Source: a virus
Direction: 5' to 3' (one strand)
Virus record (IMG/VR): IMGVR_UViG_3300006305_000013
Location: 1-29,387 of that record
DNA length: 29,387 nucleotides
Within the stretch, counting starts at the first letter, position 1. Each line of letters begins with the position of its first letter. Below are positions 1,986 through 5,467 of the stretch, piece by piece. Under the pieces are notes generated by a model. That model saw only the letters and a list, made by a program, of their open reading frames with translations. It was not told the origin of the DNA and ran no database searches. The translations under genes were made by a program, and so were the position numbers.

Positions 1986-2837
1986 ATGGCTATTACGATA
2001 ACAAAACCAACTGTTGGTGGTTCTGAGGGAACATGGGGTACGACAATTAATACCGCACTCGACACCATAGTAAATGCCGCTAACGGAACATCTGGAACAT
2101 TAGCTCCAAATTTAACAACAATAACTATAAACGGTGTTTCTAGTAGTGTAACAGCCGCTGAGTTAGATTTACTTAGTAGCTTGAACACTGGTGGTAGCGT
2201 TGTTCAAAGTTTTGTTATTGAAGATGGTGACGGAACAGAAGTTTCTGTAACTGACGGAAAAGAAATTAAGTTTGTTGAGGGCGGCGGCATTGATATTAAC
2301 TGGACCGACACATCAACAGGATCGGATGCAGACCCTTATGATTTAACTTTTACTCTTAATACAGATATGCGTTCTAGCAGTAATACGGATGTTTATACTG
2401 GCAATTCAAACGATTATATCCATTATGATACTGATGTAGGTATGCGTTTTTATACGGCTGGTGGCGAAGATATGAGGCTTACCGATGGCGGTGACTTGCA
2501 CGTTGATGCAAATATTATTGGCTACTCTACCACTATTTCTGACCAAAGGTTGAAGGGCAATATCAATAAAATTGAAAACGCATTAGACAAAGTAATGCAG
2601 ATAAATGGTTACACATTTACTTATAACCACGATGGAAAGGAGAGCGCAGGGGTCATAGCGCAAGAAGTTGAAAACATAATGCCAAGTGCAGTTCAAAGCA
2701 CTAATTTAGTTTTTAATGAAGAAAATGACGTAGAGTTTAAAACCGTTCAATATGACCAACTGCATGGATTATTAATAGAAGCAATTAAAGAATTAAAAGC
2801 TGAAATTGAGGAACTGAAAAATGCCTCTACCAAGTAG
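1986..2837 (+). CDS. Tail spike/fibre with C-terminal S74 intramolecular chaperone, 283 aa
   Basis: The start is preceded by AGGAG six bases upstream. The N-terminal half (MAITITKPTVGGSEGTWGTT, then TAAELDLL) is typical of phage fibre proteins. From about residue 185 the sequence ISDQRLKGNINKIENAL starts a peptidase S74 domain. Ser185 and Lys190 of SDxRLK match the family's self-cleaving dyad, and GVIAQEVENIMPSAV and YDQLHGLLIEAIKEL are its hallmark motifs. The family helps fibres trimerise and then cuts itself off, so the mature fibre should end near residue 184. The C-terminal helix (IKELKAEIEELK) is a coiled coil. The last 17 nt overlap the next gene. Confidence 0.88.
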   Translation: MAITITKPTVGGSEGTWGTTINTALDTIVNAANGTSGTLAPNLTTITINGVSSSVTAAELDLLSSLNTGGSVVQSFVIEDGDGTEVSVTDGKEIKFVEGGGIDINWTDTSTGSDADPYDLTFTLNTDMRSSSNTDVYTGNSNDYIHYDTDVGMRFYTAGGEDMRLTDGGDLHVDANIIGYSTTISDQRLKGNINKIENALDKVMQINGYTFTYNHDGKESAGVIAQEVENIMPSAVQSTNLVFNEENDVEFKTVQYDQLHGLLIEAIKELKAEIEELKNASTK

Positions 2838-3639
2838 CGGCCAGATAACAATAAACCAAATACACGTTGAAGCTGGTGGCGGCAGCGGTTCACAAGCAGC
2901 AATTAATGACGCCGATATTCGTTCTATGATAGGTAAGGGTTCTGGTTCACAAAATGCCTTTAACGAATATTATGGGGTTACAAATTCTGCGCCAACTGCA
3001 ACATATATTGGCAGACGTTTGACAACTGGGAATGGTTTTCCAGCTGGTGCTTTAACGTTTAACTCAGGTGACAAAGTTGTTGTTGTTGCTTTAGCGTTGG
3101 CAGGGTCAGGTAATACATTTGTGAATTTTGGTTCTACGGCTATGACGCAAGCCGCAAAAGTAGATACTGTCAGCCCAAATTCAAGTATTTGGCAAGCCGC
3201 CCCAACTTCTGCAATCTACTGGCTTCAAACATCTACTGGTGGAAGCGTTTATATATCTGGCAACGGCGGCAGTGGTCGATCAGTTTTACACGCTTGGGAA
3301 ATTACTGGTTTTAATAGTGCCACACCATTTTCAACAGCAACAGCGCAAAATACTGACGCATCAAGTTTTTCTAAAACTATTTCGATAGCAACAAAATATA
3401 ATGGTTGTACAATAGGCTCAGGTGTTACGGAAGATACAAATCCAACTGGTTCTGTGACTGTAAGTAATTCTGATAGTTTACAACAGATAGACTTAGAAAG
3501 TGCTACCAATCACTATACTTGGAGAGATGAAGGAACATCGGAAGGAACTACAAGTTATAATTGTGACCAAAACAACCCTGCGTCTAACATTGTGTCAGGG
3601 TCAACAATTCAACAACTATCTGCCGCGCATTGGAAATAA
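2821..3639 (+). CDS. Tail fibre protein with EYYG-type N-terminal module, 272 aa
   Basis: The ATG lies inside the end of the S74 gene, a 17-nt overlap that suggests coupled translation. The opening MPLPSSGQITINQIHVEAGG, then INDADIRSMIGKGSGSQNAF and EYYGV, is a recurrent N-terminal module of marine phage fibre proteins and resembles the module in the first gene of the window. The remainder is a serine-, threonine- and glycine-rich sequence compatible with a beta-sandwich (HAWEITGFNSATPF). It is probably a second fibre or a carbohydrate-facing domain. No catalytic motif is seen. Confidence 0.75.
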   Translation: MPLPSSGQITINQIHVEAGGGSGSQAAINDADIRSMIGKGSGSQNAFNEYYGVTNSAPTATYIGRRLTTGNGFPAGALTFNSGDKVVVVALALAGSGNTFVNFGSTAMTQAAKVDTVSPNSSIWQAAPTSAIYWLQTSTGGSVYISGNGGSGRSVLHAWEITGFNSATPFSTATAQNTDASSFSKTISIATKYNGCTIGSGVTEDTNPTGSVTVSNSDSLQQIDLESATNHYTWRDEGTSEGTTSYNCDQNNPASNIVSGSTIQQLSAAHWK

Positions 3640-3640
3640 T

Positions 3641-5467
3641 ATGCCATTAGTACCATTAGATTTAAAAGCAGGGTTTTACAGAAACGGCACAGAATTTGAC
3701 GCATCGAACAGGTGGCGTGATGGAAGTCTTGTTAGGTGGCGTGATGGTTCTTTGCGGCCTATTGGTGGGTGGCAAACGTTTAAATCTGGTTTTTGTACAA
3801 ACCCAATTAGAGGCGCACACGCCTGGGAGAGCCTAAACGGAACGGCTTACTTTGCGGCTGGAAGTCATAACGAACTTATAGCAATGGTAGGCTCTGGCAC
3901 AACTTACGATATTACACCAACTTCTATGACAACTGGTCGTGAGGATGCAGGGCTTAATTTAGGTTTTGGCGGTGGGTTTTACGGAACAGGTTATTTTGGT
4001 ACGCAAAGACCTGCCACTGGTACTTATTCAGAGGCCAGTAGTTGGTCGTTAGATAATTTTGGTGAATATTTACTTGGAGTTCATTATGACACTGGAACGC
4101 TTGTAGAATGGCAACTTGGTTCAAGTGCCGTTGCAGTGCCAGTAGCCAATGCGCCAACTAATAATCTTGGATTAGTCGTGACCGAAGAGCGATTTGTTTT
4201 TCTTTTAGGTGCTGGTGGAAACCCACGCAGAGTGGCTTTTTCAGATAAAGAAAATAATACAATTTGGACTCCAGCAGCAACTAATGAAGCTGGTGATTTT
4301 GAGTTGCAAACTACTGGTCAAATTATGCAAGGCTTAAACACTAGAGGCCAAACCTTAATAATTACTGACAGTGACGCATTTTCTGCAAGATATTTAGGCC
4401 CACCATATGTATATGGTTTTAATCGTGTTGGTACTTCGTGCGGTGCAGTTTCTAGAATGAGTGCAGTAGATACCGACATGGGTGCGTTTTGGATGGGTCA
4501 AAAAGGTTTTTTTGCTTTTGATGGAAACTCAGTAAAAGAACTGCCATGTGAAGTACATGACTACGTTTTTGACGATATAAACGTTAACCAACAATCTAAA
4601 ATTTGGGGGTTTAGCAATAGTGAATTTAGTGAGGTTTGGTGGTTTTATCCGTCTGCAAATAGTTTGGAAATTGACAGATACGTTGCGCTAGACTTATTAG
4701 AAAATCATTGGCTTATTGGAAATTTATCTAGAACTGGTGGAGTTTCTAGAGGCGTATTTAGAACGCCTATAATGAGTGGCGAAAATCCTGAAAATATTAC
4801 ATATAATGTTACGGTTGCCGATAGTGGCGGTAATAAGTATTTTATTTCCGATCATTCTGGTGCGGCTCCTACTTTAACTCTCAAAAAGGGAAATGTGTAT
4901 CGATTTGACCAGTCAGATAGTTCAAACATTAATCACCCGTTTCAGTTTTCTACAACGTCAAACGGAACTCATGGTGGTGGTTCAGCGTACAATACTAATG
5001 TCGTTTCAACAGGTTCGCCAGGAAATGCAGGTAGTTATGTAGAAATAACTGTTACAGACAGCACACCGTCAACGCTGTATTATTATTGCGGAAATCACTC
5101 AGGAATGGGTGGAACTATTAATGTCATCGAACCAGTAATGGTTTTTAACCATGAGCAAGGCTTAAACTATGATAGTGGTTCTGTTTTTTGCGAAACTGGT
5201 CCAGTATCAATCGGTAATGGTGATAATGTTATGTATGTTACATCAGTTATACCTGATGAAAAAACACAGGGTGATGTAAATATGACTTTTAAAACAAGGC
5301 TTCATCCTAACGGTTCAGAAACGACATTTGGGCCATTTGTTCCCTCAAATCCTACAGACGCTAGATTTAGTGGAAGGCAAGTACGAATGAAAGTAGAGGG
5401 AGTTAAGGCTGCAAAATGGCGTGTGGGAACTATGCGTTTAGAAACAAGGGTTGGGGGTACTAGATAA
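3641..5467 (+). CDS. Large tail nozzle/hub-like protein with an inserted cupredoxin domain, 608 aa
   Basis: I chose the ATG one base after the previous stop codon because MPLVPLDLKAGFYRNGTEFD is the recognisable opening of this marine phage tail family; the frame is open further upstream, but that part overlaps the fibre gene. Residues 1-380 are rich in beta strands and Gly-Trp turns (RWRDGSLVRWRDGSLRPIGG), compatible with a beta-propeller nozzle protein such as T7 gp12 or P22 gp10; that role is inferred. Residues ~385-500 look like a cupredoxin domain: His432 (NHPF), Cys483, His486 and Met489 (YYCGNHSGMGG) have the C-x2-H-x2-M spacing of amicyanin. The C-terminal part resumes the tail fold. 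Its stop codon overlaps the next start by one base. Confidence 0.8.
   Translation: MPLVPLDLKAGFYRNGTEFDASNRWRDGSLVRWRDGSLRPIGGWQTFKSGFCTNPIRGAHAWESLNGTAYFAAGSHNELIAMVGSGTTYDITPTSMTTGREDAGLNLGFGGGFYGTGYFGTQRPATGTYSEASSWSLDNFGEYLLGVHYDTGTLVEWQLGSSAVAVPVANAPTNNLGLVVTEERFVFLLGAGGNPRRVAFSDKENNTIWTPAATNEAGDFELQTTGQIMQGLNTRGQTLIITDSDAFSARYLGPPYVYGFNRVGTSCGAVSRMSAVDTDMGAFWMGQKGFFAFDGNSVKELPCEVHDYVFDDINVNQQSKIWGFSNSEFSEVWWFYPSANSLEIDRYVALDLLENHWLIGNLSRTGGVSRGVFRTPIMSGENPENITYNVTVADSGGNKYFISDHSGAAPTLTLKKGNVYRFDQSDSSNINHPFQFSTTSNGTHGGGSAYNTNVVSTGSPGNAGSYVEITVTDSTPSTLYYYCGNHSGMGGTINVIEPVMVFNHEQGLNYDSGSVFCETGPVSIGNGDNVMYVTSVIPDEKTQGDVNMTFKTRLHPNGSETTFGPFVPSNPTDARFSGRQVRMKVEGVKAAKWRVGTMRLETRVGGTR

Follow-up and report, generated by a model that had tools for sequence, protein, structure and literature searches.

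We found that the tail nozzle protein of a short-tailed, probably marine phage carries an inserted domain with the predicted fold of a cupredoxin and with the four residues of a type 1 copper site. The window that we analyzed is the whole of one viral record, 29,387 bases long and perhaps a fragment of a genome, in which portal, scaffold, and major head genes are present. The predicted fold of the domain, its ligand set and the conservation of that set, the insertion site, the exchange of the domain, and its spread over virion proteins were all obtained by computation. We think it likely that the domain is an exchangeable, outward-facing module that acquires its copper extracellularly and makes contact with a fiber or with the surface of the host. 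The features are listed in Table 1.

Table 1. Features of the nozzle gene and its inserted domain (window positions)
Feature	Positions	Strand	Evidence
Tail nozzle protein, 608 aa	3641..5467	+	PHROG, profile, AF2, Foldseek, and VIA evidence
Nozzle platform and beta-propeller part before the insert	3641..4780	+	Relatives; AF2 model
Inserted cupredoxin domain (predicted), residues 382-498	4784..5134	+	Nozzles with versus without insert; AF2; Foldseek; VIA
Codon of His432, first predicted copper ligand (H-P-F-x-F)	4934..4936	+	Conserved in 79/80 and 67/68 (ligand-blind sets)
Codon of Cys483, predicted thiolate ligand	5087..5089	+	Conserved in 79/79 and 69/69 (ligand-blind sets)
Codon of His486, predicted copper ligand	5096..5098	+	Conserved in 78/79 and 68/69 (ligand-blind sets)
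Codon of Met489, predicted axial copper ligand	5105..5107	+	Conserved in 79/79 and 68/69 (ligand-blind sets)
Remainder of the nozzle after the insert (by inference, last propeller strand and C-terminal platform)	5135..5467	+	Strands from AF2 model

The preliminary description called the protein nozzle-like, and we found that this was right. Residues 10 to 382 matched PHROG 3287, a virion structural protein (E 4.4e-79). A profile made from the window protein and 53 relatives (A5; 54 aligned sequences) matched the nozzle of Pa223 (9nwi) at E 2.5e-36 and that of VP1 at E 9.4e-21. We modeled the full-length protein with AF2 (pLDDT 88.6, pTM 0.86) and compared the model with known structures. The first 29 Foldseek rows were all chains from phage tail or portal-tail entries, and VIA aligned 455 residues with 9nwi (Z 30.4, rmsd 3.1). 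As judged from its predicted platform and beta-propeller fold and from its kinship in sequence to a solved nozzle, the protein is a phage tail nozzle. The nozzles of Pa223, VP1 (gp16), SU10 (gp17), T7 (gp12), and P22 (gp10) have the same whole fold; those of Pa223 and VP1 are also its sequence kin. By analogy with the solved relatives, it would be a hexamer.

We number residues from the ATG at 3641. The frame is also open upstream, from a GTG at 3500 (655 aa). In many relatives (e.g., L002, L005, and L016) a stop lies 7 codons before the residue aligned with the window Met, so the ATG at 3641 is the likely residue 1. The upstream stretch of the frame (3500-3640) overlaps the last part of the gene before it (2821-3639), which is in another frame. 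For both the nozzle core and the portal, the top row in the phage collection was Octadecabacter Antarctic DB virus 2 (57% and 49% identity, respectively), whose nozzle is without the insert. Elsewhere in the window, positions 1986-2837 encode a tail fiber protein that, over its final ~100 residues, matches the ends of many PHROGs tail fiber and baseplate families.

The inserted domain comprises about 115 residues and is plugged into a hairpin between nozzle core residues ~380 and ~500. It was present in 21 of the 54 aligned nozzles and absent from 33; in the insert-free nozzles shown, the core continues through a short hairpin at this site and directly adjoins the part that follows the insert. 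The interval 4796-5140, proposed in the preliminary description, covers the domain. An AF2 model of the domain, with 44 domains as input, had a pLDDT of 97.2 and a pTM of 0.90. Among the Foldseek matches to the PDB that were listed (50 of 1,486), all 50 were type-1-copper or multicopper proteins: two-domain laccases, another laccase, rusticyanins, the cupredoxin AcoP, pseudoazurins, and copper nitrite reductases. Their E values ran from 4.8e-4 to 1.7e-3, with the first 24 at 4.8e-4 to 9.8e-4. The top VIA row (Z 10.2, rmsd 2.5, 100 aligned residues, 20% identity) was the first domain (residues 24-133) of 2dv6, a copper nitrite reductase with three domains. The remaining VIA rows among the 50 listed were nitrite reductases, laccases, rusticyanin, ascorbate oxidase, and, twice, coagulation factor VIII, which is a relative in the cupredoxin-like fold and not a blue copper protein. 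The model thus predicts that the domain has the cupredoxin beta-sandwich fold.

The preliminary description had also named four residues, His432, Cys483, His486, and Met489, with C-x2-H-x2-M spacing and a YYYC strand, as in type 1 copper proteins of the amicyanin kind. All four are present, in the order His, Cys, His, Met, as are the spacing and the strand; in domain numbering they are H51, C102, H105, and M108. Cys483 is the sole Cys between residues 382 and 498. In the predicted fold, His432 lies just before domain strand 53-56, Cys483 ends the next-to-last strand (97-102), and His486 and Met489 lie in the loop ahead of the last strand. This placement is the cupredoxin layout.

We compared the domain with known families at the level of sequence as well. 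The whole nozzle protein had no match in Pfam, and the window domain was above no Pfam or NCBIfam cut-off. Pfam Copper-bind (PF00127) scored 14 bits against the window domain (E 0.068; curated cut-off, 21.2 bits) and matched 9 of 44 domain members at E up to 1 (best, 0.0011). Other sandwich families in Pfam also matched weakly: Pur_ac_phosph_N in 8 of the 44 and CBM_4_9 in 4, the latter with the best single Pfam E value among these members (6.1e-4). Sub-threshold matches to NCBIfam plastocyanin were found in 9 of the 44 (best E, 0.0024). In PHROGs, the domain matched tail fiber, baseplate wedge, virion structural, and unnamed families, and PetE plastocyanin at E 0.17. As a single sequence against the PDB, it matched pseudoazurin and an archaeal flagellin equally (E 0.27).

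The domain profile A1 found nothing significant among PDB sequences; its best matches were an antibody (E 0.33), a copper oxidase (0.6), and pseudoazurin (1.5). The antibody chains (E 0.33 to 1.2) were matched through the YYC motif, as would be expected if the domain were Ig V-like and the motif merely resembled a copper loop. We consider this very improbable, since the domain has no partner for its Cys and neither the 50 rows listed by Foldseek nor the 50 listed by VIA included an antibody. An Ig V-like domain was rejected on these grounds.

The direct sequence link of the phage domain to plastocyanins appears weak. hhalign against cyanophage plastocyanins aligned 13 columns with a probability of 2.2% (E 0.022), the plastocyanin set being shallow (28 of 80 loci fit the pattern, 17 of them distinct and some cut short). 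With a profile of 122 phage domains, these plastocyanins came at E 64 or worse, and a cousin domain in the proximal tail fiber of cyanophage P-SSM2 came at 0.0071 (search space, 20,000). This cousin (L243, 225520-225720) scored 19.8 bits against Copper-bind, for which the cut-off is 21.2, and its 14 best PDB sequence matches were all copper proteins (E 0.0011 to 0.72; the first was cupredoxin 1). Because the cousin is nearer to Copper-bind and is found by the phage profile, it ties the family weakly to known cupredoxins.

We then asked how well the four ligands are conserved. A first domain scan, whose patterns contain the ligands, gave HCHM in 82 of 83 domains among the best 80 of 123 loci, the other being cut by a contig end (the query and the window's own locus were removed). 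Two further patterns were blind to the ligands: A3, which lies between the first His and the Cys, and A7, which lies ahead of the first His. The loci were the best 80 of 496 and the best 80 of 487, with some contigs common to both sets, and every one of the 80 loci in each set gave a domain row. A3 gave 84 domains, of which 82 were HCHM, one was cut, and one was FCQM; A7 gave 84 rows, with 81 HCHM, one FCYY, one partial row that starts past the first His, and one cut. Pooled, 141 of 145 distinct domains were HCHM, two were cut or partly aligned, and two lacked both histidines; the seeds of both patterns were drawn from ligand-bearing domains, and remote ligand-less members could escape them. 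The His-Met gap was two residues in 141 of the 145 and three in one, and the motif was not found in three. The domain was also found with all four ligands in 21 of 21 insert-bearing nozzles of A5. A ligand-free search with the nozzle core (best 80 of 598; 79 distinct loci) found it in 8 of 79 loci, again always with the four ligands; some of the 71 other loci end ahead of the insert site.

Departures from the pattern were rare. Two degenerate copies lost both histidines together (FCQM in L184 and FCYY in L394), and a second domain copy in phage Syn1 had none of the four ligands, the other Syn1 copy being intact. The loop of one insert-bearing nozzle (L089) is one residue longer (C-x2-H-x3-M). 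Among genome contigs, 17 of 18 domains (17 loci) were HCHM, and one, in a SAR86 bin (L254), was HCHQ, its Met replaced by Gln, which serves as the axial ligand in stellacyanin. Both the longer loop and the Gln are metal-compatible variation.

As to the suggestion that the domain might be a relic cupredoxin, we rejected it on the ligands kept in 141 of the 145 distinct domains; only two had clearly lost any, and a loss of ligands in most relatives, which would have told against the preliminary proposal, was not seen. The pattern is better explained by selection on a metal site than by a relic.

The H, C, H, and M residues could nevertheless serve folding or another metal. The domain would then be a cupredoxin-fold decoration that keeps these residues for folding or binding and is metal-free in the virion, a reading that we hold to be unlikely. 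Several glycine and aromatic columns were as constant as the ligands. Although columns H51, C102, H105, and M108 were among the most constant in both ligand-blind sets (distinct rows), conservation alone is thus not enough to identify a metal site. The rare copies that lack the histidines were still matched by the domain profile, and sandwich domains are common phage decorations, the SU10 nozzle having Ig-like domains according to excerpts of PMC9509320. Against a metal-free decoration, exactly the four type 1 ligands are near invariant, with no second Cys for a disulfide; both histidines are lost together in degenerate copies; and the replacements elsewhere (L089 and L254) are compatible with metal. 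We favor a copper site.

We found that the insert has been gained or lost more than once. In a tree of the nozzle core, 20 insert-bearing rows formed one clade (100/100), and the remaining insert-bearing nozzle, L089, paired with the insert-free L088 (97/88). This topology requires at least two gains or losses of the insert; the tree has long branches elsewhere. Among the 20 nozzles of this clade, domain identity did not track core identity (Spearman 0.11 over 190 pairs, which are not independent). Two nozzles (L016 and L022) were 90 to 100% alike in windows of the alignment outside the insert and 52 to 82% alike in windows overlapping it, and the window protein shared 91% of the core and 69% of the domain with L024. 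These comparisons of sequence indicate that the insert is exchanged between closely related nozzles. The C-terminal part of the nozzle was also mosaic between close pairs (68 to 70% for L022 versus L024), which means that exchange is not confined to the insert.

Cys517, in the part after the insert, was considered as an insert-linked residue and rejected. All 20 rows of the main clade had it, but L089, which bears the insert, has Ala at this position, as do 17 of the 33 insert-free nozzles, so it follows descent; the remaining 16 insert-free nozzles had Leu, Val, or Ile. Other relatives of the nozzle have other inserts of ~100 to 150 aa at other points of the core (L111, L112, L113 [core position ~161], L119, and L114), some of which look by eye like carbohydrate-binding jelly rolls. 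No Pfam family was above its cut-off for the inserts of L111, L119, L114, and L123.

The insertion site can be placed on the nozzle by comparison. The Pa223 chain that aligns at the insert site has a loop of ~40 residues with three tryptophans where the window nozzle has the cupredoxin; the alignment of A5 with the VP1 chains (521 aa) does not span the site. In excerpts of PMC9509320, the SU10 propeller is described as having a fiber-dock loop with Trp839, Trp847, and Trp857 at the blade 1 edge; its Ig-like domains are placed between blades 2 and 3, a different site from that of the window insert. Going by order along the chain, the cupredoxin would occupy the fiber-dock position, on the outside of the tail.

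To see how far the domain extends beyond this nozzle, we searched 50,697 phage records by tblastn and found 56 with a match. Their names are those of Synechococcus, Prochlorococcus, cyanophage, Methylophilales, Pelagibacter, and marine viruses, with one "uncultured" and one "phage"; isolates from Prochlorococcus, Synechococcus, Pelagibacter, and Methylophilales are included. The carriers are labeled "hypothetical protein," "tail fiber," or "virion structural protein." All seven isolates examined in detail (S-TIM5, Baldr, Melnitz, Mosig, Syn1, Bellamy, and P-SSM2) had at least one intact HCHM copy. P-SSM2 had two, in two tail fiber proteins; its proximal tail fiber combines the different, cousin cupredoxin with one of the window type (L241 frame 11145, residues 83-165), and the phage also has petE (66.9 bits).

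For the non-domain parts of 58 chosen carriers, the PHROGs matches listed (25 of 72 families) included virion structural, tail fiber, and baseplate wedge proteins and also central tail fiber J, minor tail, and head closure proteins. In Pfam, the same parts matched 20 families, among them DUF7483, SPRY, Laminin_G_3, Phage-tail_3, and SU10_adaptor. Predicted viral structures gave 72 matches to the domain at E 0.001, and the named rows among the 50 listed came mainly from tail and structural proteins of cyanophages, plus some sandwich proteins of giant viruses. On these matches, the window domain belongs to a large family spread over many virion proteins, mostly of marine phages.

The family also occurs in some bacterial contigs. 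In five contigs of marine Flavobacteria or Bacteroidetes (L246, L247, L250, L251, and L252), a four-ligand domain lies inside frames of 2,593 to 4,091 aa, apparently giant surface proteins. In bacterial bins L253 (frame at 4131) and L255, the domain is in frames whose starts look by eye like those of lipoproteins or secreted proteins, so the family is perhaps also cellular.

We propose the following model. Free copper is scarce in the cytoplasm, where virions assemble, and this counts against a copper reading. Most likely, the domain would fold in the host cell without copper and take up the metal after lysis, in the periplasm or in seawater. Once loaded, it would be a rigid, outward-facing contact module, present in about six copies per virion if the nozzle is hexameric like its relatives. 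Exchange of the segment would diversify the surface of the domain, with the ligands held fixed.

Copper could instead be bound mainly for redox chemistry or metal capture: superoxide chemistry, exchange of electrons with the host surface, or delivery of copper to a copper receptor of the host. In known cupredoxins the type 1 copper site is redox-active, and the records with the family are mostly marine. A Trojan-horse idea exists for iron in marine phage tail fibers (excerpts of PMC11705849). However, segment exchange fits contact better than it fits a fixed redox partner, and we regard a mainly redox or capture role as decidedly unlikely. The contact module remains our preferred reading.

Several known systems resemble the window domain in part. 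Amicyanin, pseudoazurin, plastocyanin, rusticyanin, and the first domain of nitrite reductase have the same predicted fold and the same order of His, Cys, His, and Met. The spacing in amicyanin is C-x2-H-x2-M, and the window domain shares this loop length; the title of PDB 2vmj, a Foldseek row, names a loop CTPHPFM. In contrast to amicyanin-type cupredoxins, the domain has H-P-F after the first His and is part of a virion nozzle rather than a soluble electron carrier. The proposal of an amicyanin-like copper site in a tail protein holds for the cupredoxin-type domain and its intact amicyanin-type ligand loop, but because the domain lies inside a 608-aa nozzle and is not free-standing and soluble, we do not class it as an amicyanin. 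Ig-like and carbohydrate-binding decoration domains of phages are small beta-sandwiches that occur in many virion proteins and are exchanged among them. The window domain is likewise a small, exchanged sandwich; unlike them, it has a conserved set of metal ligands. A separate copper protein gene, petE, also occurs in cyanophages and encodes a soluble protein of host photosynthesis, whereas the window domain is part of a virion protein.

Metal in phage tails has a precedent in the HxH iron sites of T4-like and marine phage tail fibers, for which a role in host contact has been proposed (excerpts of PMC11705849 and PMC9509320). The predicted metal and the fold of the window domain are different, and its site is predicted to lie within one chain. 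The HxH motif was not found in the window nozzle, which has His at 60, 76, 148, 306, 356, 405, 432, 444, 486, 504, and 555.

The cupredoxin fold and phage decoration modules are each already known. Among open-access papers, judged by titles and the openings of abstracts, we found none on a cupredoxin or type 1 copper domain of phage virions, nor on a complete type 1 ligand set that recurs in virions as an exchanged module.

That a copper-type domain is common to tail proteins of many marine phages suggests that some virus particles carry copper on the outside. The wider claim, that many marine phage tails carry functional type 1 copper centers, loaded outside the producing cell, for finding or engaging the next host, is tentative and in our judgment rather doubtful. 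Iron, in HxH sites, is a metal known in phage tails; type 1 copper would be a different metal, a redox-capable center, and a new surface module. If our reading is true, phages of Prochlorococcus, Synechococcus, Pelagibacter, and Methylophilales would have this module, and isolates from each host group make the copper content of their virions directly measurable. On the wider claim, the centers would form a copper counterpart of the iron Trojan-horse idea, and seawater would also contain, in its marine virions, a pool of copper bound to protein.
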